From the NCBI RefSeq assembly GCF_005503445.1, contig NZ_SCOH01000016.1:1-64000 (forward strand): 64,000 nucleotides of DNA, given 5' to 3'. The DNA comes from Chitinivorax sp. B. GTDB taxonomy: Bacteria; Pseudomonadota; Gammaproteobacteria; Burkholderiales; SCOH01. The notes beneath the pieces were generated by a model. That model saw only the letters and a list, made by a program, of their open reading frames with translations, had not been told where the DNA came from and did not search any database. The position numbers and the translations under genes were made by a program. This document shows positions 4,735-58,146 of this stretch, in pieces (the first letter of the stretch is position 1; every line of letters starts with the position of its first letter).

Positions 4735-7323
4735 ATGCTTGAAGCTTATCGCCAACATGTTGCCGAGCGTGCGGCGCTTGGGATTCCCGCCCTGCCGCTG
4801 AATGCGCAGCAAACTGCCGATCTGGTCGAACTGCTGAAGAACCCGCCGGCTGGCGAGGCGGAATTCCTGGTCGATCTGATCACTAACCGTGTACCGCCGG
4901 GTGTGGATGATGCTGCCAAGGTCAAGGCTTCTTACCTGGCCGCCGTAGCATTCGGTACTGAAGCTTGCCCGCTGATCAGCCGTGAAAAAGCAACTGAACT
5001 GTTGGGCACGATGCTGGGTGGCTACAACGTCAAGCCGTTGATCGAGCTGCTGGCAGATGCTGCTGTAGGCGCCATCGCTGCAGAAGGTCTGAAAAAGACC
5101 CTGTTGATGTTTGATTACTTCCACGATGTGAAGGAACTGGCCGACAAGGGCAATGCACACGCCAAGGCAGTGATCCAATCGTGGGCAGATGCTGAATGGT
5201 TCACCAACCGTCCGGAACTGGCCAAGAAAATCACCCTGACCGTGTTCAAGGTGACTGGCGAGACCAACACCGATGACCTGTCCCCAGCGCCGGATGCGTG
5301 GTCCCGCCCTGACATTCCGCTGCATGCATTGGCGATGTTGAAAAACCCGCGCCCTGGTATTGAGGCTGATGAAGCAGGTAAAATCGGCCCGATCAAGCAA
5401 TTGGCTGCACTGCAAGCCAAAGGCCATCAGATTGCTTACGTTGGTGACGTAGTCGGTACCGGTTCTTCCCGTAAGTCGGCAACCAACTCGGTGTTGTGGT
5501 TCACTGGTGACGACATTCCGTTCGTACCCAACAAGCGCTTTGGCGGTTTCTGCTTCGGCACCAAGATCGCGCCGATTTTCTTCAACACCATGGAAGATGC
5601 TGGTGCACTGCCTGTTGAAGTGGATGCGGGCAAAATGGATATGGGCGATGTGATCGACTTCTACCCATACGAAGGTAAGGTTGAGAAGAACGGTGAAGTG
5701 ATTGCCCAATTCGCACTGAAGTCTGATGTGTTGTTGGATGAAGTCCGTGCTGGTGGTCGTATTCCGCTGATCATCGGTCGTGGCCTGACTGCCAAGGCGC
5801 GTGAAGCACTGGGTCTGCCGGCTTCCACCGTATTCCGTCTGCCGCACGATCCTGCAGATTCCGGCAAGGGCTTCTCGCTGGCACAAAAGATGGTTGGTCG
5901 CGCCTGTGGTCTGCCAGAAGGCAAGGGCGTGCGCCCTGGTACTTACTGCGAGCCGAAGATGACGACCGTGGGTTCGCAAGATACCACTGGGCCGATGACC
6001 CGCGACGAGCTGAAGGATCTGGCTTGCCTGGGTTTCTCGGCTGATCTGGTCATGCAATCTTTCTGCCACACTGCAGCGTATCCGAAGCCTGTTGATGTGA
6101 AGATGCACCATGAACTGCCAAACTTCATCTCCAGCCGTGGCGGCGTTGCGTTGCGTCCGGGTGATGGTGTGATCCACAGCTGGTTGAACCGCCTGTTGAT
6201 GCCGGATACCGTGGGTACCGGTGGCGATTCGCACACCCGCTTCCCGATCGGTATTTCCTTCCCGGCTGGTTCTGGTTTGGTGGCGTTTGCTGCTGCTACC
6301 GGAGTTATGCCGCTGGATATGCCGGAATCCGTACTGGTCCGTTTCAAGGGTGAAATGCAGCCTGGCGTGACCCTGCGCGATCTGGTCAATGCGATTCCGC
6401 TGTATGCGATCAAGGCGGGTCTGTTGACTGTTGAGAAGAAGGGTAAGAAGAACATCTTCTCCGGCCGCATCCTGGAAATTGAAGGTTTGCCAAAGCTGAA
6501 GGTTGAGCAGGCATTCGAGCTGTCCGACGCATCTGCAGAGCGCTCCGCAGCCGGTTGTACTGTGCATTTGGATGAAGAACCGATCATCGAATACATGAAG
6601 TCCAACATCACCCTGATGAAGTGGATGATTGCGAATGGTTACGCTGACGCACGCACCCTGGAGCGCCGCATCAAATCGATGGAAGCCTGGATTGCCAAGC
6701 CGGAACTGCTGCAGCCGGATGCCGATGCAGATTACGCTGCAGTGATCGAGATCAATCTGGCTGACATCAAGGAGCCGATCGTTGCTTGCCCGAACGATCC
6801 AGATGATGTGAAGACGTTGTCTGAGGTTGCTGGCGACAAGATCGATGAAGTGTTCATCGGTTCGTGCATGACCAACATCGGCCACTTCCGTGCAGCTTCC
6901 AAGCTGTTGGAAGGCAAGAGCGACATCCCGGTTCGCCTGTGGGTTGCGCCACCGACCAAGATGGACGCGCAACAGCTGACTGAAGAAGGTCACTACGGCG
7001 TGCTGGGCCGCACAGGTGCACGGATGGAAATGCCAGGTTGTTCGCTGTGTATGGGTAACCAAGCACAAATCCGCAAGGGCTCCACCGCGTTCTCCACTTC
7101 CACCCGTAACTTCCCGAACCGTCTGGGCCTGGATACCCGGGTGTACCTGGGCTCCGCCGAATTGGCGTCGGTCTGCTCCATGCTGGGCAAAATCCCGACC
7201 TATGAGGAATACATGGCCAACATCGGTGTGATCAACAAGAATGCCGATCAGGTTTACCGTTACATGAACTTCAACGAGATCAAAGAGTATCAAGATGTCG
7301 CTGATACCGTTGCAGTGAAGTAA
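4735..7323 (+). CDS. acnB: Aconitate hydratase B / 2-methylisocitrate dehydratase
   Basis: The main TCA-cycle aconitase of proteobacteria, also able to act on 2-methylaconitate in some species. The 862-aa protein matches the AcnB architecture: N-terminal HEAT-like domain, swivel domain near the N-terminus ([16 protein letters not shown]), then the catalytic domains with cluster ligands in [13 protein letters not shown] and [10 protein letters not shown]. The ATG at 4735 gives the canonical start [14 protein letters not shown] and has GAAGG upstream; a TTG at 4720 is also in frame but overlaps that ribosome-binding site. Codon use is strongly biased, as in a highly expressed gene, which leaves a very long antisense frame open (see rejected items). 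A strong terminator follows. Confidence 0.97.
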
Positions 7324-41018: not shown

Positions 41019-42812
41019 ATGGCTACCTACAAGGCGCCGATGCGCGATATGCAGTTCGTATTGCATGAATTGCTGGATGCTGAAAAGGTTTTGTCGACCC
41101 TTCCTGGCTATGAAGAGGTCTCAAAGGATGTGCTGGATCAATATCTGGAAGCCAGCGCCCAATTCTGCGAAAACGAGATTGCACCGCTTAACCGTGCTGC
41201 CGATGAAGAAGGTTGCCACTGGGATAATGGTGTGGTCACCACACCTAAAGGTTTCAAGGAAGCCTACAAGCAGTTCTGTGAATTGGGTTTTCCCAGCTTG
41301 GATTGTGATCCGGCCTATGGTGGTCAAGGCATGCCCAAGACTTTGGGCTTCCCATCCATGGAGATGCTGATTTCTGCCAATGTAGCCTGGTCGATGTACC
41401 CCGGTTTGTCGCATGGTGCATACAGTGCCATCCACGCCCATGGCGAACAATGGATGAAAGACCTGTATCTGCCCAAGATCGTTGATGGTACTTGGTCCGG
41501 CACCATGTGCTTGACCGAGCCGCATTGTGGTACCGATCTGGGAATGCTGAAGAGCAAGGCGGAAGTCAATGGCGACGGTACGTACAACATCACCGGTACC
41601 AAGATTTTCATCTCCGCTGGTGAACACGATCTGACCGATAACATTATCCATTTGGTGCTGGCGCGTCTGCCGGATTCACCAAAAGACATCAAGGGCATCT
41701 CTCTGTTCCTGGTACCGAAATTCCTGCTGGATGCGAATGGGAACCCTGGCGAACGCAATGGCGTGAGCTGTGGTTCGATTGAGCACAAGATGGGTATCAA
41801 AGCCAATTCGACCGCCGTACTGAACTTTGACGGCGCCAAGGGTTGGCTGGTGGGTGAAGTGAACAAGGGCATGACTTGTATGTTCACCATGATGAATGCA
41901 GCGCGCCTGGGTTGTGGCATGCAAGGCCTGGGTTTGGGTGAAGCGTCCTACCAGAATGCAGTAGCTTATGCCAAGGATCGCGTGCAGATGCGCTCACTGA
42001 CCGGCACCAAACGGAATGACCTGCCGGCCGATCCGATCATCGTACACCCGGATGTACGCCGCATGTTGCTGACTGGTAAGGCTTATACCGAAGCAGGGCG
42101 TGCGTTCTCCACTTGGCTGGCATTGCAACTGGATATCGAAGAGAAATCCACTGACGATGCAATCCGCCAGGATGCTGCTGATATGGTGGCATTGCTGACC
42201 CCGATCGCCAAAGCCTTCATGACTGACAATGGCTACACCGTGACCAACCTGAGCATGCAGGTTTACGGAGGTCATGGCTTCATCCGTGAATGGGGCATGG
42301 AACAATTTGTACGTGACTGCCGAATTTCGCAGATTTACGAAGGCACCAATACCATTCAAGCTCTGGATCTGATCGGCCGTAAAGTCTTGCTGGATCAAGG
42401 CCAGAAGCTGCGTAAATTTACCAAGATCATCCACAAGTTCTGTGAAGCCAACGGGCAAGACCCGCAGATGAAAGAGTTCGTCGAGCCACTGGTCAAGCTG
42501 ATGAAGGACGTGGGTGATGTCACCATGCATATCGGCATGCAGTCGATGATGAACAAAGACGAAGCAGGTGCCGCAGCAGTAGATTACTTGCGCCTGGTGG
42601 GGCACTTGGCCTTCGGTTTCTTCTGGGCCTGGATGGTCAAGGTTGCCTACAGCAAGATGGAAACCGGCGACAAGAAGTTTTACCAATCCAAGGTGACCAC
42701 GGCACGTTTCTACTTCCAGCGGCTGTTGCCTGAAACCGCATCGTTGCTGCAAACACTGCGCTCTGGTTGCAAGAACCTGATGGATCTGGAAGAAGACAGC
42801 TTCATCTTCTAA
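41019..42812 (+). CDS. Acyl-CoA dehydrogenase with C-terminal extension
   Basis: 597 aa FAD enzyme catalysing the first step of beta-oxidation. The N-terminal, beta-barrel (GTMCLTEPHCGTDLG) and helical domains are followed by the extra C-terminal domain of this long subfamily, related to DmdC and other 600-aa dehydrogenases. The catalytic glutamate is in QIYEGTNTIQ. I choose the ATG at 41019 (MATYKAPMRDMQF); a TTG at 41010 is in frame but lies too close to GGAG. A strong terminator follows, so it is monocistronic. Confidence 0.93.
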   Translation: MATYKAPMRDMQFVLHELLDAEKVLSTLPGYEEVSKDVLDQYLEASAQFCENEIAPLNRAADEEGCHWDNGVVTTPKGFKEAYKQFCELGFPSLDCDPAYGGQGMPKTLGFPSMEMLISANVAWSMYPGLSHGAYSAIHAHGEQWMKDLYLPKIVDGTWSGTMCLTEPHCGTDLGMLKSKAEVNGDGTYNITGTKIFISAGEHDLTDNIIHLVLARLPDSPKDIKGISLFLVPKFLLDANGNPGERNGVSCGSIEHKMGIKANSTAVLNFDGAKGWLVGEVNKGMTCMFTMMNAARLGCGMQGLGLGEASYQNAVAYAKDRVQMRSLTGTKRNDLPADPIIVHPDVRRMLLTGKAYTEAGRAFSTWLALQLDIEEKSTDDAIRQDAADMVALLTPIAKAFMTDNGYTVTNLSMQVYGGHGFIREWGMEQFVRDCRISQIYEGTNTIQALDLIGRKVLLDQGQKLRKFTKIIHKFCEANGQDPQMKEFVEPLVKLMKDVGDVTMHIGMQSMMNKDEAGAAAVDYLRLVGHLAFGFFWAWMVKVAYSKMETGDKKFYQSKVTTARFYFQRLLPETASLLQTLRSGCKNLMDLEEDSFIF

Positions 42813-51959: not shown

Positions 51960-52646
51960 TGTTTCAGGTGGATAGGGGGGGTGCCCAACTGCTTTAGGCG
52001 CCGTCATTGCAAGTCATCGGATATGTACTGTTGGCGAAGCGTCTGAATGGTAAACCAAGCGGAGCGATATACGTTTTCGTGTGTGGATCTGGTTGGCCTG
52101 TTGTATTGGGTGTAAGACCACCACCTCGGTCCATTCAGACCGTATTGGTGCAAATAGCTGCTTGGCTTGCACAAGCAGGCATCATCATCCAATACTTCTT
52201 CAGTCTTGGTACCGTCAGCCATGGGGTCTTGGCGCGATTGCATTCCCGATTGATTTTGCCTGATTTAAATTCACATGGTTTGTAGGTAAAAGTCGATTCA
52301 GTGCTGGAAATGTTGAGTAGCTATCCATCATTCGTGCTTCGCCAAGACACACTTTCGGCTTGATCTTGCCTAGAGGACAACAGTGGAGGCAGCAGTGCTG
52401 ACGAGGTTGTCCACCGTTTGTTTGAATGTTTCAACAGTAACCTCGGCAATCTTCCTTTTGCCAGCCTGTGGCGCAGATATGCCGTTGATTTTATGAATAC
52501 CAGTGGTACTACATGTTGTGAGCAGACAATCTGCTGCTGATGCGCTGTATTGTTGCGCTGACGCAAGGATTGTTTTCTTGTGCAATGCAAAAATGTCATC
52601 GAATACTGCTATATGAAGGGTAACCGACGGTATGGAAAAGGTGAGC
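51960..52646. other. Intergenic region upstream of the Pta operon
   Basis: Nearly 690 bp between divergent transcription units. It contains the promoters for both. A minus-strand frame (52370-52648) encodes a 92-residue Ala/Ser/Thr-rich helical peptide that faintly recalls phasins, but it overlaps the start of the plus-strand Pta gene and has no clear start site, so I do not call it a gene. Confidence 0.4.
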
Positions 52647-54020
52647 ATGACTGAAAACTATCCACTAGAAGGTCTGCGGCCCGGTCAGCGTGCTGAAACG
52701 ATGCGTCGTCTGACGGTCAACGATATAGAGTTGTTTGCGCTGATGGGGGGCGAGATTGATAGCGAGCAGATACGACCTGCAGGCGAAGGGCATGTGGCTG
52801 CCCATGCCAGTGGCTGTGTGGCGTTGGTGCTGTGGTTGATCTGCAACCGCATGCCAGGGGCTGGCAGCGAAGTGATGCGGCACGACCTGCGGTCAGCTGG
52901 CATGGTCATGGTAGGGGACGAGATCGATTGCGATGCAGAATTGTCAGAAGTCGATGCCGAGACCGGCTTGGCCCTGTTTCGTGTCGGTTGTCGCAATCAA
53001 CATGGTTCGACTTTACTGTATGGCCATGTTTGGGTTCGGGCACCACGTGAGCGAATTGTCAGCGAGCACGAATCGTTGCCGGAAATCACGCTGCATCGCC
53101 ATGATGGTTTTGCCCATTTGCTGGAATCCTGCAAGACAAGAGAGGCGGTCAGCTGCGCAATTGTTCACCCTTGCGATCGTGATTCCCTGCTGGGTGCGCT
53201 GGAGGCGGCGCGCCATGGTTTGATTCGGCCGATTCTGGTAGGGCCACAGGCCAAGATTCGAGCCACTGCCGAGGCAGCTGGTGCGAGCCTGGATGGCATT
53301 GAGATGCTGCACACCGAACATAGTCACGCTGCAGCGATGGCCGCTGTCGAGCTGGCGCGCAATGGCCTTGTTGAATCGTTGATGAAAGGTTCGCTACATA
53401 CCGATGAATTGATGGCCGCCGTGGTGCCCAGTGCCACGGGCCTGAGAACCGGCCGACGTATCAGTCATGTGTTTGTACTGGATGTGCCAGCCTACTCGCG
53501 GCCACTGCTGGTGACCGATGCGGCCATCAACATTGCACCGGCTTTTGAAGAGAAGATCGATATCGTGCAAAACGCTATCGATCTGGCACACATTCTGGGT
53601 ATTCCTGAACCCAAGGTCGCAATTTTGTCGGCAACCGAGGTGGTCAATTCGAAAATTCCGTCGACCATGGATGCCGCTCTACTATGCAAAATGGCCGATC
53701 GGGGGCAGATTACTGGTGGCATACTGGATGGCCCGCTCGCTTTCGACAACGCCATCAGCATTGAAGCAGCCCGTACCAAGCGTATTGTGTCACCCGTGGC
53801 TGGCCAAGCAGATATTCTGGTCGCACCAGATCTGGAGGCCGGGAATATGCTTGCCAAGAATATGGCGTATTTTGCGGGGGCCGATATTGCGGGGGTGGTT
53901 GTCGGTGCACGGGTACCGATTGTACTGACCAGTCGTGCCGACAGTGTGCGTTCGCGTCTGGCCTCTGCTGCCATCATGGCATTGGTGGCGCATGCCCGTC
54001 GCCCAACTGTTGAGGAATGA
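52647..54020 (+). CDS. Bifunctional MaoC-like hydratase / phosphate acetyl(butyryl)transferase
   Basis: 457 aa. Residues 1-140 form a MaoC-like hot-dog domain and the rest a phosphotransacylase (Pta/Ptb) domain (ESLMKGSLHTDELMAAV; PSTMDAALLCKMADRGQI). Such fusions are known in betaproteobacteria near PHA genes. The ATG at 52647 follows AAGGTG; an ATG at 52632 is in frame but overlaps that site. It starts a three-gene operon with ackA (3-nt gap) and fabI, linking acyl-CoA to acyl phosphate. Confidence 0.88.
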   Translation: MTENYPLEGLRPGQRAETMRRLTVNDIELFALMGGEIDSEQIRPAGEGHVAAHASGCVALVLWLICNRMPGAGSEVMRHDLRSAGMVMVGDEIDCDAELSEVDAETGLALFRVGCRNQHGSTLLYGHVWVRAPRERIVSEHESLPEITLHRHDGFAHLLESCKTREAVSCAIVHPCDRDSLLGALEAARHGLIRPILVGPQAKIRATAEAAGASLDGIEMLHTEHSHAAAMAAVELARNGLVESLMKGSLHTDELMAAVVPSATGLRTGRRISHVFVLDVPAYSRPLLVTDAAINIAPAFEEKIDIVQNAIDLAHILGIPEPKVAILSATEVVNSKIPSTMDAALLCKMADRGQITGGILDGPLAFDNAISIEAARTKRIVSPVAGQADILVAPDLEAGNMLAKNMAYFAGADIAGVVVGARVPIVLTSRADSVRSRLASAAIMALVAHARRPTVEE

Positions 54021-54023
54021 GCC

Positions 54024-55211
54024 ATGGATGGCTTGTTGGTGGTCAATGCTGGTTCATCCAGCCTGAAATTTGCTATCTACACGGTTGACGATACATTACC
54101 AGACCCGCTCTGGCGCGGTATTCTGGACGGCCTACCCAAAAAGCCCCATGCACGGGTAGTGGATCAGCACGGGAATGAATTGATCAATCAACAGGTAGCC
54201 TTGCCAGCCGGAGATCCGGCGCTGGCCCCCAGCCGCTGGTTGCTCGCCTGGTTGTCGACATTGAATGAAATCGAACTGAAGGCGGTTGGCCATCGGGTGG
54301 TGCATGGCGGTACGGAATTCATTTCGCCGGTGCGTATCGATGGTGAAGTCATGATCCGCCTGCAAGCGCTGATCCCACTGGCCCCCTTACATCAGCCTGG
54401 CAATCTGATTCCGATTCAGGCCATCACCAATCATTACCCGACACTACCGCAAATTGCCTGCTTCGATACCGCCTTTCACCGTAGCCAGCCGGCGTTGGCC
54501 CAACTTTATGCCTTGCCAGACCATATCACCCGTCAGGGCGTAAGAGCTTATGGTTTTCATGGCCTGTCTTATGATTACATCACCAGCCGGCTACAGGATA
54601 TTGCTCCGCAGCATGCACAAGGCAAGCTGGTGGTGGCACATCTGGGCAATGGTGCCAGCATGTGTGCCATTGAGGGGGGTAAAAGTGTGGCCAGCAGTAT
54701 GGGTTTCACTGCGCTGGATGGCCTGATGATGGGCACCCGCTGCGGAAATCTCGATCCCGGGGTGTTGCTGTATCTGATGGCGCAGGGGATGGATCACACT
54801 GCACTGGAACACCTACTGTATCGTGAATCCGGCCTATTGGGGGTGTCCGGTCTGTCGTCGGATATGCGAGATCTGCTGGCGAGTGATGTGGAGTCAGCCA
54901 AACGGGCTGTTGCCATGTTCTGCTATCGTGCTGGTCGGCAACTTGGGTCGCTCGCCGCAGCACTACAAGGGCTGGATACCTTGATCTTCACGGGGGGGAT
55001 CGGTGAACATGCCGCACCGATTCGAGCACAGATTGCCATGCGTGCGGCTTGGCTGGGCGTAGCGATCGACCCGGACCTGAACAATGCCCATGCGCCAATC
55101 ATTTCTCCACCGGGCAGTAAAGTAATGGTACGGGTGATGGCGACTGATGAAGAAGCAGTGATTGCCGAACATGTTCGATCCTGGTTGCTGCTGGATTCCA
55201 CCGAACATTGA
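54024..55211 (+). CDS. ackA: Acetate kinase family protein
   Basis: 395 aa. The N-terminal LLVVNAGSSSLKFAIY and the FDTAFH and GFHGLSYDY motifs are those of the acetate/propionate kinase family; HLGNGASMCAI and FTGGIGEHA complete the ATP site. Together with the preceding transacylase it would convert acyl-CoA to carboxylate with ATP yield. The 3-nt gap implies translational coupling. Substrate chain length is not determined. Confidence 0.93.
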   Translation: MDGLLVVNAGSSSLKFAIYTVDDTLPDPLWRGILDGLPKKPHARVVDQHGNELINQQVALPAGDPALAPSRWLLAWLSTLNEIELKAVGHRVVHGGTEFISPVRIDGEVMIRLQALIPLAPLHQPGNLIPIQAITNHYPTLPQIACFDTAFHRSQPALAQLYALPDHITRQGVRAYGFHGLSYDYITSRLQDIAPQHAQGKLVVAHLGNGASMCAIEGGKSVASSMGFTALDGLMMGTRCGNLDPGVLLYLMAQGMDHTALEHLLYRESGLLGVSGLSSDMRDLLASDVESAKRAVAMFCYRAGRQLGSLAAALQGLDTLIFTGGIGEHAAPIRAQIAMRAAWLGVAIDPDLNNAHAPIISPPGSKVMVRVMATDEEAVIAEHVRSWLLLDSTEH

Positions 55212-55226
55212 AAGGACTTGACCGGA

Positions 55227-56003
55227 ATGAATATTCCTTGCCTGACACTGGCAGGTAGCAAGGCCCTGGTTGTTGGCGTTGCCAATGAACACTCCATTGC
55301 CTGGGGATGTGCCCGCGTGTTCCACAAGCTGGGGGCGGAGGTGGCATTGACCTATTTGAACGAGAAGGCCTTACCTCATGTGAAGCCATTGGCTGAACAC
55401 ATCAACGCACCATTGCTGTTGCCACTGGATGTAAGCATTCCAGGTCAACTGGAAGCGGTATTCAATGAGGTTCGTCAATATTGGGGCCGTTTGGATATGG
55501 TGGTGCATTCAATTGCCTGGGCTCCCCTTGCGGATTTGCATGGCCGATTGACCGACAGCTCGGTTGATGGATTTTTACGGGCGATGGATGTGTCCTGCCA
55601 CTCGTTCATACGTATGGCCAAGCTGGCCGAGCCACTGATGCCAGATGGCGGTACCCTACTGGCGATGAGTTACTTGGGGGCCAACAAGGTGGTGCAGAAT
55701 TACCAACTGATGGGGCCGGTGAAGGCAGCATTGGAGGCATCGGTACGTTATCTGGCCTATGAACTGGGGCCGATGGGAATCCGTGTGCACGCGCTGTCAC
55801 CAGGTCCGATCCGCACACGTGCCGCCAGTGGGCTGCAGGATTTCGATGAACTATTGTACGACGCCATGCAGCGCTCACCAGAACAGGATCTGGTCGATAT
55901 CGATGATGTTGGCCATGCCGCTGCCTACTTATGCACACCAGCAGCCCGATTGATCACTGGATCGGTCCAGTATATTGATGCCGGGCACCACATCATGGCT
56001 TGA
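55227..56003 (+). CDS. fabI: Enoyl-[acyl-carrier-protein] reductase, FabI type
   Basis: 258 aa short-chain dehydrogenase. The active site is Y149, Y159 and K166 (SYLGANKVVQNYQLMGPVKAA), the Y-x6-Y/K spacing of FabI. The N-terminal GVANEHSIAWG binds NADH. The ATG at 55227 follows AAAGGA; a TTG at 55218 is less likely. Being third in an acyl-phosphate operon rather than a FAS operon, it may be a specialised paralogue; whether another fabI exists is unknown. Confidence 0.88.
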   Translation: MNIPCLTLAGSKALVVGVANEHSIAWGCARVFHKLGAEVALTYLNEKALPHVKPLAEHINAPLLLPLDVSIPGQLEAVFNEVRQYWGRLDMVVHSIAWAPLADLHGRLTDSSVDGFLRAMDVSCHSFIRMAKLAEPLMPDGGTLLAMSYLGANKVVQNYQLMGPVKAALEASVRYLAYELGPMGIRVHALSPGPIRTRAASGLQDFDELLYDAMQRSPEQDLVDIDDVGHAAAYLCTPAARLITGSVQYIDAGHHIMA

Positions 56004-56514
56004 TGGTCACGCTGGGTGTGGCCTATCGCGATGCCCGGCAGGTTTGATCACATCATTGACATCACTGTGTCATCCACATTGCTTGTGGAAAAAGGTTTGA
56101 ATTGTGGTGGCAAGTTATTATTCTGTAATGTGAATTCCTGTGTGATTAAAAAATAGGCAAAGATGTTGCGATGCCGCAATCTAGTGGACATCGTAATGTG
56201 ATGCACACCATACCGAGCGATATTACCGAGTTGTCTGAAATTTGAGCGATGCTGAAAAGGGTTGCTGCCTCAATGGCTTGGTGCCTGAGTTCATCATTTT
56301 GTCCACAGTGATTGTGGATGACCCGCCAGTGTGGGCTATGTCCGCACCATCTGGCCTGCTGAGCCGTGACTGATCCTTCGAATAGGGAGCCTGCCTAGGT
56401 TCAACTCTGCATCCATCCACATTCGCTGTGGACAACTATGCGAATTGCCTGGTCAAGTCATTCTGATGAAAGAAAAATTTCAGATTGACTGAAAAATGGG
56501 CAGGCAGGGGTGGT
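56004..56514. promoter_or_regulatory. Intergenic region with three TCCACA-N5-TGTGGA palindromes
   Basis: The palindrome occurs at 56073-56089 (spacer TTGCT), 56302-56318 (GTGAT) and 56417-56433 (TTCGC); a fourth is at 57171-57187 (GATGC), on the other side of the GNAT gene. Each is an exact 6+6 dyad with a 5-nt spacer. The half-sites resemble part of a DnaA box (TTATCCACA), but the inverted, tightly spaced arrangement also fits a dimeric regulator. No other gene is seen here. Confidence 0.6.
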
Positions 56515-57075
56515 TCAATCAGTCAGTAAAAAATCCCGCCGCAGCAGTGACCATTGCAGCATGTCGTGAAACTGACTGCCCCAATAAGCTCCCTCACGAA
56601 AGCAGCCTTCCTCCACAAAGCCCAGTGTTCTGGCAAGTTTGATCGATGGATGGTTCTGTGGATGGATTTGTGCCTCAATACGATTCAGCGACATCTGTTC
56701 AAAGCCCCAGCTCAATATCGCCTGCATTGCTTCACGCATATAGCCTTGGCCCTGATGCTGCATGGCCAGTTCATAACCGACGGAACATTTTCGCCACGGG
56801 CGATGCCAGTTGAACAGCCCGCAACTTCCAATCAGGTTAGTCTCGCCATGTTGTTGGATGCCCCAGCGGGTACCGGGATTGGGAAGGGTGCGCCAACTGG
56901 CAAAGGTATCGACCAGTTGGTGGGCTGCTTGGACATCGGGCAATGGGTCGCTACCAAACCAGCGCATCAATACTGGGTCGCTATGAATGGCATAGAGAGC
57001 AGGGGTATCGTTGTGCGTAATTTCACGCAGGATAAGGCGCGCAGTGTGTAATTCGGGAAAGGGTGTCATAGTCAT
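56515..57075 (-). CDS. GNAT N-acetyltransferase (RimJ/RimL type)
   Basis: 186 aa; acetyl-CoA loop QHQGQGYMREAMQA and C-terminal LARTLGFVEEGCFREGAYW typical of ribosomal-protein-like acetyltransferases and related small-molecule enzymes. The start is ATG at 57075 or 57069; neither has a good Shine-Dalgarno. It lies between the repeated TCCACA dyads, three downstream of its stop and one upstream of its start. Substrate unknown. Confidence 0.85.
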   Translation of the reverse strand: MTMTPFPELHTARLILREITHNDTPALYAIHSDPVLMRWFGSDPLPDVQAAHQLVDTFASWRTLPNPGTRWGIQQHGETNLIGSCGLFNWHRPWRKCSVGYELAMQHQGQGYMREAMQAILSWGFEQMSLNRIEAQIHPQNHPSIKLARTLGFVEEGCFREGAYWGSQFHDMLQWSLLRRDFLLTD

Positions 57076-57170
57076 GAAAACGTGGGAAGGTTTGACAGTG
57101 GCTGCCTGGATACGTGGTTTTACACGCCAATCAGAATCAGATCATTGCACATCAAACTCACCCGATTTCA

Positions 57171-57187
57171 TCCACAGATGCTGTGGA
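57171..57187. promoter_or_regulatory. Fourth TCCACA-N5-TGTGGA palindrome
   Basis: TCCACA-GATGC-TGTGGA, about 95 bp upstream of the GNAT start and 75 bp beyond the ppk2 stop. Extended symmetry here is longest (CATCCACA / TGTGGATG). Confidence 0.6.
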
Positions 57188-57261
57188 TGAGGGCGTGGAA
57201 GGTATTGCCAAGTATTTGTACGGATAATTAAATTCGGTATTGATTAAATATAAGGCGCCTG

Positions 57262-58146
57262 TCAGGTTTCTGTATCCAACTGTTGGCGAGCAGTGGTCAA
57301 TGCTTCCCGCTCTGTCGCGGCAAGTGTCGGGTAACTCAGCTTCATGTCTTTGAGTGCATCGATAATTGCGCCGATCACTACCAGCCGGGTAAACCACTTG
57401 TTGTCCGCTGGCACTACAAACCAGGGAGCTTGAGGGGTGGCTGTGGCGCGGATTGCCTGTTCGTAGGCGTGCATATAGTCGTCCCAGTGTTGGCGTTCGG
57501 CGATGTCGGCTGCAGAAAACTTCCAGTTTTTCTCTGGGTTGTTCAAACGTTCATAGAAGCGGCGTTTCTGCTCATCCTTGGATACATGTAGAAAGAATTT
57601 GCGGATCATCGTGCCATTACGGCCCAGGTAATCCTCGAAGTGGCGGAGATCGTCACATCGTTCATCCCAGATGCGTCTGGTGACCAATTTGGTTGGCAAT
57701 TGCTGCTTGTCCAGCAGCGTTGGGTGAACCCGTACCACCAGGACTTCTTCATAATATGAACGGTTGAAGATGCCGATGCGGCCACGCTCAGGCAAGCGCC
57801 GCATGCTGCGCCACATGAAATCATGGTCCAGCTCTTCTGACGTGGGGGCCTTGAATGAGTGGACTTCGCACCCTTGCGGGTTGATGCCCGACATCACCTG
57901 CTTGATGGTACTGTCCTTGCCCGCTGCATCCATGGCTTGAAACACCAGCAGCAATGACCATTCATTGTGGGCGTAAAGCTTATCCTGCAATTCGGCCAGT
58001 TCGGTGATACTTCGCTGTAGCAGGTTCTTGGCCTCTTCACGGAATTCCGATTCCAGACCTGCCGTATCCCCCGGGTTGATCTCGTCCAGCTTGAAGCCTT
58101 TACTGTTCTGAATGCGATAACGTTTGATCAGTTTATCGAGCTTCAT
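57262..58146 (-). CDS. ppk2: Polyphosphate kinase 2 family protein
   Basis: 294 aa single-domain PPK2. The Walker A is FQAMDAAGKDST (69-80), followed by INPQGCEVHSFKAP and the Walker B region FNRSYYEEVLVVRVHP, then ERQHWDDYMHAYEQA. It moves phosphate from polyphosphate to nucleotides; class (I, II or III) cannot be decided by eye. The start has AAGGA 6 nt upstream. It follows plpD by 24 nt on the same strand and may share its transcript. Confidence 0.92.
   Translation of the reverse strand: MKLDKLIKRYRIQNSKGFKLDEINPGDTAGLESEFREEAKNLLQRSITELAELQDKLYAHNEWSLLLVFQAMDAAGKDSTIKQVMSGINPQGCEVHSFKAPTSEELDHDFMWRSMRRLPERGRIGIFNRSYYEEVLVVRVHPTLLDKQQLPTKLVTRRIWDERCDDLRHFEDYLGRNGTMIRKFFLHVSKDEQKRRFYERLNNPEKNWKFSAADIAERQHWDDYMHAYEQAIRATATPQAPWFVVPADNKWFTRLVVIGAIIDALKDMKLSYPTLAATEREALTTARQQLDTET

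Follow-up and report, generated by a model that had tools for sequence, protein, structure and literature searches.

Why should one short palindrome recur four times around a single acetyltransferase gene? In the 64,000-nucleotide stretch of Chitinivorax sp. B DNA analysed here (the window), exact TCCACA-N5-TGTGGA dyads are present at positions 56073, 56302, 56416 (written as 56417 in the initial annotation) and 57171, that is, four sites within a span of 1.1 kb. The closest further site of the window, at 42430, carries one mismatch, and 100 dinucleotide shuffles gave no match to the pattern. Over the whole genome (5.66 Mb, 169 contigs) we counted eight exact dyads, with none expected by shuffling, and half of them belong to the window array; the reversed control pattern gave a single match (compare 1 with 8). 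Of the other genomic dyads, two stand 431 bp apart beside cheR on contig 10; contig 7 has one upstream of priA, and that of contig 45 falls within a coding region. Given one site of the array, the chance of the remaining three falling so close to it is about 2e-9. Four of the eight dyads thus lie within 1.1 kb, so the even genomic spread against which the initial annotation had set its proposal is not what was found. The 5-bp spacer is also the favoured one: it accounts for 8 of the 15 matches with gaps of 0 to 30 in this genome and, in 60 genomes of the order, for 29 of 75 among the matches listed with gaps of 1 to 14 (binomial P of about 1e-14).

The array lies between a fabI-type enoyl-ACP reductase gene (55227..56003, plus strand, Pfam PF13561) on its left and a polyphosphate kinase 2 gene, ppk2 (57262..58146, minus strand, Pfam PF03976), on its right. 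The GNAT acetyltransferase gene (56515..57075, minus strand, Pfam PF13302) sits between the third and fourth dyads. The dyads had been described as surrounding this gene, and the arrangement itself is correct, three being on one side and one on the other; the implied link to the gene does not hold. In a sister species of the same genus (G001), the fabI-ppk2 interval contains four dyads, two exact and two with one mismatch, of the 12 such sites (exact or one-mismatch) in its 4.4-Mb genome, and the GNAT gene is absent from that interval. We therefore regard the GNAT gene as incidental, inside the array but not part of the element, and an operator linked to it is ruled out. The flanking genes of the two species are about 75% identical, but apart from the dyads the DNA between them cannot be aligned, meaning that the dyads were kept at fabI-ppk2 while the rest of the interval changed. 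Genes of the phosphotransacetylase, acetate kinase and FabI-type enoyl reductase kinds follow one another at 52632-56003 of the window and are likewise conserved beside the array in the sister species.

Each dyad consists of two 9-bp DnaA boxes that face each other across 5 bp, exactly like boxes I and II of the E. coli DARS1 and DARS2 cores, the inner arm TCCACA being the DnaA box core. The four window dyads hold eight half-sites. The conserved half-site, TYRTCCACA, extends over 9 bp, which is the length of a DnaA box. In the 20 half-sites aligned, position 1 is T in 17, position 2 is a pyrimidine in all 20 and position 3 is a purine in 18. These half-sites depart from the strict DnaA consensus TTWTNCACA in their first bases (starts TCA, TTG and CCA). 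The suggestion that the constant arms reflect selection for protein binding, and that this protein could be DnaA, is supported by the 9-bp half-site and by a geometry that is that of the core of the E. coli DARS elements (see below). As for an RNA element, it was rejected: there is no Rfam match, the spacers vary and two of the sister copies carry an uncompensated change of an arm base.

The unit of conservation is larger than the dyad. An ungapped, oriented alignment of ten copies (four from the window, two from contig 10 and four from G001) defines a module of about 94 bp, free of indels, in which the elements follow one another in a fixed order: box I, 5 bp, box II, 3 bp, a weak box III, a CAAGY motif and a Fis consensus. 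Module A (56070..56163, plus strand) has box I at 56070-56078, box II at 56084-56092 and the weak box III at 56096-56104, followed by CAAGT at 56111-56115 and the Fis consensus GATTAAAAAATAGGC at 56144-56158. Module B (56228..56321) is on the minus strand, with box I at 56313-56321, box II at 56299-56307, the box III position at 56287-56295 (a 3/9 match), CAAGC at 56276-56280 and the Fis consensus at 56233-56247. Module C (56413..56506, plus strand) has its boxes I, II and weak III at 56413-56421, 56427-56435 and 56439-56447, CAAGT at 56454-56458 and the Fis consensus GACTGAAAAATGGGC at 56487-56501. Module D (57168..57261, plus strand) has its three boxes, the third again weak, at 57168-57176, 57182-57190 and 57194-57202, CAAGT at 57209-57213 and a Fis-like site with one mismatch at 57242-57256. 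The fabI and GNAT genes converge, and Modules A, B and C occupy the space between their 3' ends; Module D precedes the GNAT start by about 90 bp and ends one base short of the ppk2 stop codon. The proposal of a loop formed by a dimeric regulator is not supported, the unit being this oriented module, with boxes I, II and III, CAAGY and Fis, and not a 17-bp palindrome.

The distal elements hold fixed places in the alignment. Over the ten modules a box III signal is found at exactly +3 (p of about 7e-4), with at most 5/9 matches per site; the CAC core occurs there in 7 of 20 cases, compared with no more than 2 at other gaps, and +3 is the gap that DARS predicts. Box III is clear in the priA core of the same genome. 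The Fis consensus GNNYRNNWNNYRNNC at +71 is perfect in 8 of the 10 modules (three of the four window modules among them) and has one mismatch or less in all 10. The tests for Fis and box III followed inspection of the alignment; even so, the offset scan, corrected for 160 positions, is still far from chance. CAAGY is present at +38 in six of the ten; the longer motif CAAGYCATT looks like half an IHF site. The IHF consensus WATCARNNNNTTR itself showed no enrichment at any offset in the window-type modules, including the place expected from the cores of the order described below. Conservation is concentrated mainly in the columns of the DnaA boxes, CAAGY and Fis, most of the others being near background.

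This anatomy resembles that of a known family of elements. The E. coli DARS1 core reads TTATCCACT-ATTCC-TGTGGATAA-CCA-TGTGTATTA, and the DARS2 core shares its layout. As in the dyads, boxes I and II are head to head across a 5-bp gap; box III, which is weak in the modules, stands 3 bp further on in the orientation of box II, and the loci, like the window array, are intergenic. The opposing orientation of boxes I and II in E. coli DARS is described as allowing head-to-head ADP-DnaA dimers and promoting ADP release (PMC8682772), and DARS2 uses Fis and IHF (PMC4245941). DARS1 too has a CAAGC, at +50, where the modules have CAAGY at +38, and DARS2, like the module, has a Fis site near its core. 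The window locus differs from the E. coli elements in having four modules in an array, a degenerate box III and another gene neighbourhood; no IHF consensus accompanies its Fis site at +71, while DARS2 has IHF sites placed between its core and its Fis sites. Given a weak box III, of no more than 5/9 matches, and the absence of IHF, we call the modules DARS-like and have not filed them as DARS.

The same layout is widespread in the order of the host, which gene content suggests is probably Burkholderiales. The full I-5-II-3-III core, CCACA-N5-TGTGGATAA-N3-TGTG, was found in 186 of 300 genomes of the order, compared with none of the 300 for its reversed control, and most of the N5 sites retrieved from other genomes of the order have a box III at exactly +3 together with a perfect box II. 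The core recurs upstream of priA, where Chitinivorax sp. B has a copy too, and in the interval separating xseA from exbB/tolQ-like genes. In 29 order-level loci with box III at +3, the Fis consensus is found at +83 (perfect in 10) and the IHF consensus at +116 (perfect in eight, one mismatch or less in 15), the frequencies by chance being 0.2% and 0.014%, respectively; YAAGY is found at +49. The order cores and the window modules share the I-5-II-3 spacing, the YAAGY motif and the Fis site in the same succession; the former differ in their near-perfect box II, better box III, Fis site at +83 and IHF site at +116, and the stretch from box III to the distal half is 11-12 bp shorter in the modules, about one helical turn. 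The distal half as a whole is shifted by this distance, since CAAGY is at +38 in the modules compared with YAAGY at +49 in the order cores and CAAGC at +50 in DARS1. Upstream of the E. coli mutH gene (L021:3452-3587), another set of boxes resembling a DARS core carries a perfect match to the IHF consensus at +116, which is the offset seen in the order-level cores.

A profile (R2) built from the 29 order cores, with the window modules left out, gave the four modules as its top four matches in the window: Module C with 27.9 bits, the window maximum (56414-56507, aligned with an 11-base deletion in the distal part), Module A with 20.4 (56070-56167), Module D with 20.0 (57169-57262) and Module B with 17.1 (56223-56321, minus strand), the next match having 9.7. 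Searched over the whole genome, R2 finds the window modules at E-values of 1.1e-5 to 0.03, which are rough values, as are all those from models of the R1/R2 type, as well as the two modules of contig 10 and a further array, downstream of rnr. In E. coli, where scoring covered the DARS and datA loci, DARS1 obtained 26.1 bits, and two segments of the DARS2 region obtained 18.5 and 14.8. The window modules thus show a family relation to the cores of the order and to E. coli DARS.

Arrays of this kind are a repeated theme and not a quirk of the window, because they are found at other loci. Downstream of rnr on contig 25 (G000:C25:71800-72536; L067:5801-6537), model R1 identified five tandem DnaA-box/Fis modules with a longer box arrangement, and an orthologous array is present in G001 (L068). 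The exbB-xseA interval holds further R2 matches in two more genera of the order: about seven copies in 1 kb between the exbB-like gene and xseA in G058 (L073:4039-5083) and several modules in G010 (L072:4232-5903). We also observed a pair of R2 matches starting at box II on either side of minC-minD (L075:2581-2702 and 5834-5958), upstream of a DUF938-like methyltransferase gene and a YbaK-like gene (families named by eye); G001 and G004 have similarly spaced pairs. Another R2 match lies between the apparent end of dnaA and dnaN (L078:1229-1353) in a member of the order whose complete genome measures 1.7 Mb.

The genome carries dnaA, an Hda-like open reading frame and a dusB-fis locus (dusB and fis named by eye from the open reading frames). 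The array is not oriC: dnaA is on another contig, and the region upstream of dnaA contains a single consensus box and no dyad. From its sequence the array is almost certainly a locus to which DnaA and Fis would bind, and it is probably a locus controlling the timing of replication. Boxes I and II would each take one DnaA molecule, the two forming a head-to-head pair across the 5-bp gap, with a third possibly on the weak box III 3 bp further, and Fis, at its fixed downstream distance, would bend the DNA. Such binding would affect nucleotide exchange at the modules: by analogy with ADP release at E. coli DARS1 and DARS2, the array may shift the level of ATP-DnaA, and the number of its sites suggests that it could sequester DnaA as well. 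DARS-like reactivation combined with sequestration, acting on the timing of replication initiation, would be its most likely role. With moderate confidence we thus favour a non-coding DnaA-control locus of four DARS-like modules that would modulate the ATP-DnaA level, sequester DnaA and help to time initiation.

The alternative that survives best, although we judge it less likely, is pure titration, in which the array would only sequester DnaA without nucleotide exchange and Fis would merely shape the DNA. A titrating cluster of boxes takes up many DnaA molecules and postpones initiation. Titration was proposed for datA in older work, and also for DnaA-box clusters; in Bacillus subtilis several intergenic clusters of DnaA boxes are able to sequester DnaA, and these are not known to include head-to-head pairs or Fis sites. 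The grouping of four modules in 1.2 kb, the sub-consensus boxes, the degenerate box III and the existence of more such arrays, in this genome and in those of other genera, are all consistent with titration. However, titration alone needs neither a fixed 5-bp head-to-head gap nor Fis and CAAGY at fixed offsets, and the layout matches that of DARS cores. The resemblance to datA, which works with boxes 2, 3 and 7 and an IHF site (PMC5742627), is that of a non-coding DnaA-box cluster near genes of unrelated function. Known datA function is to promote hydrolysis of ATP by DnaA. The window has no matching box layout, and a datA-type element does not fit, since no IHF consensus was found at a fixed place in the modules.

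We consider it improbable that DnaA acts here on transcription of the GNAT gene, ppk2 or fabI. The location of Module D upstream of the GNAT start and that of order-level cores upstream of priA would fit such a role, but promoter control is disfavoured because three modules lie between converging gene ends; as Module D abuts the ppk2 stop codon, most modules are without a promoter, and the sister interval has dyads and no GNAT gene. Still less probable is another dimeric transcription factor with TCCACA-N5-TGTGGA as its operator: the symmetric, exact 6+6 arms and variable spacers would suit an operator, but conservation reaches 9-bp half-sites of the DnaA consensus and a third box at +3, and the modules are detected by profiles made from order-wide DnaA-box cores. 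Finally, common descent from a dispersed repeat or a mobile element could account for ten similar copies of about 94 bp in two genomes but is hardly credible, conservation being mainly in the DnaA-box, CAAGY and Fis columns, with spacers and orientation that vary among copies and no flanking repeat signature seen.

It is an evenly balanced proposition that a DARS-type DnaA-Fis(-IHF) element is ancestral and standard throughout the order, beyond the relatives of E. coli, that it has multiplied in several genera into arrays of four to seven modules (at fabI-ppk2, rnr and xseA-exbB) setting the ATP-DnaA level, and that the window array is a version shorter by one helical turn. Descriptions of DARS in the open-licence papers searched are so far confined to E. 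coli and its near relatives among the gammaproteobacteria, and we found no report of it outside the gammaproteobacteria in that literature. The same box geometry with Fis and IHF offsets in a different order, if true, would make DnaA reactivation a general mechanism. The exact coordinates in many genomes can serve for testing the timing of replication by such loci, and the single and array versions form a natural comparison series.
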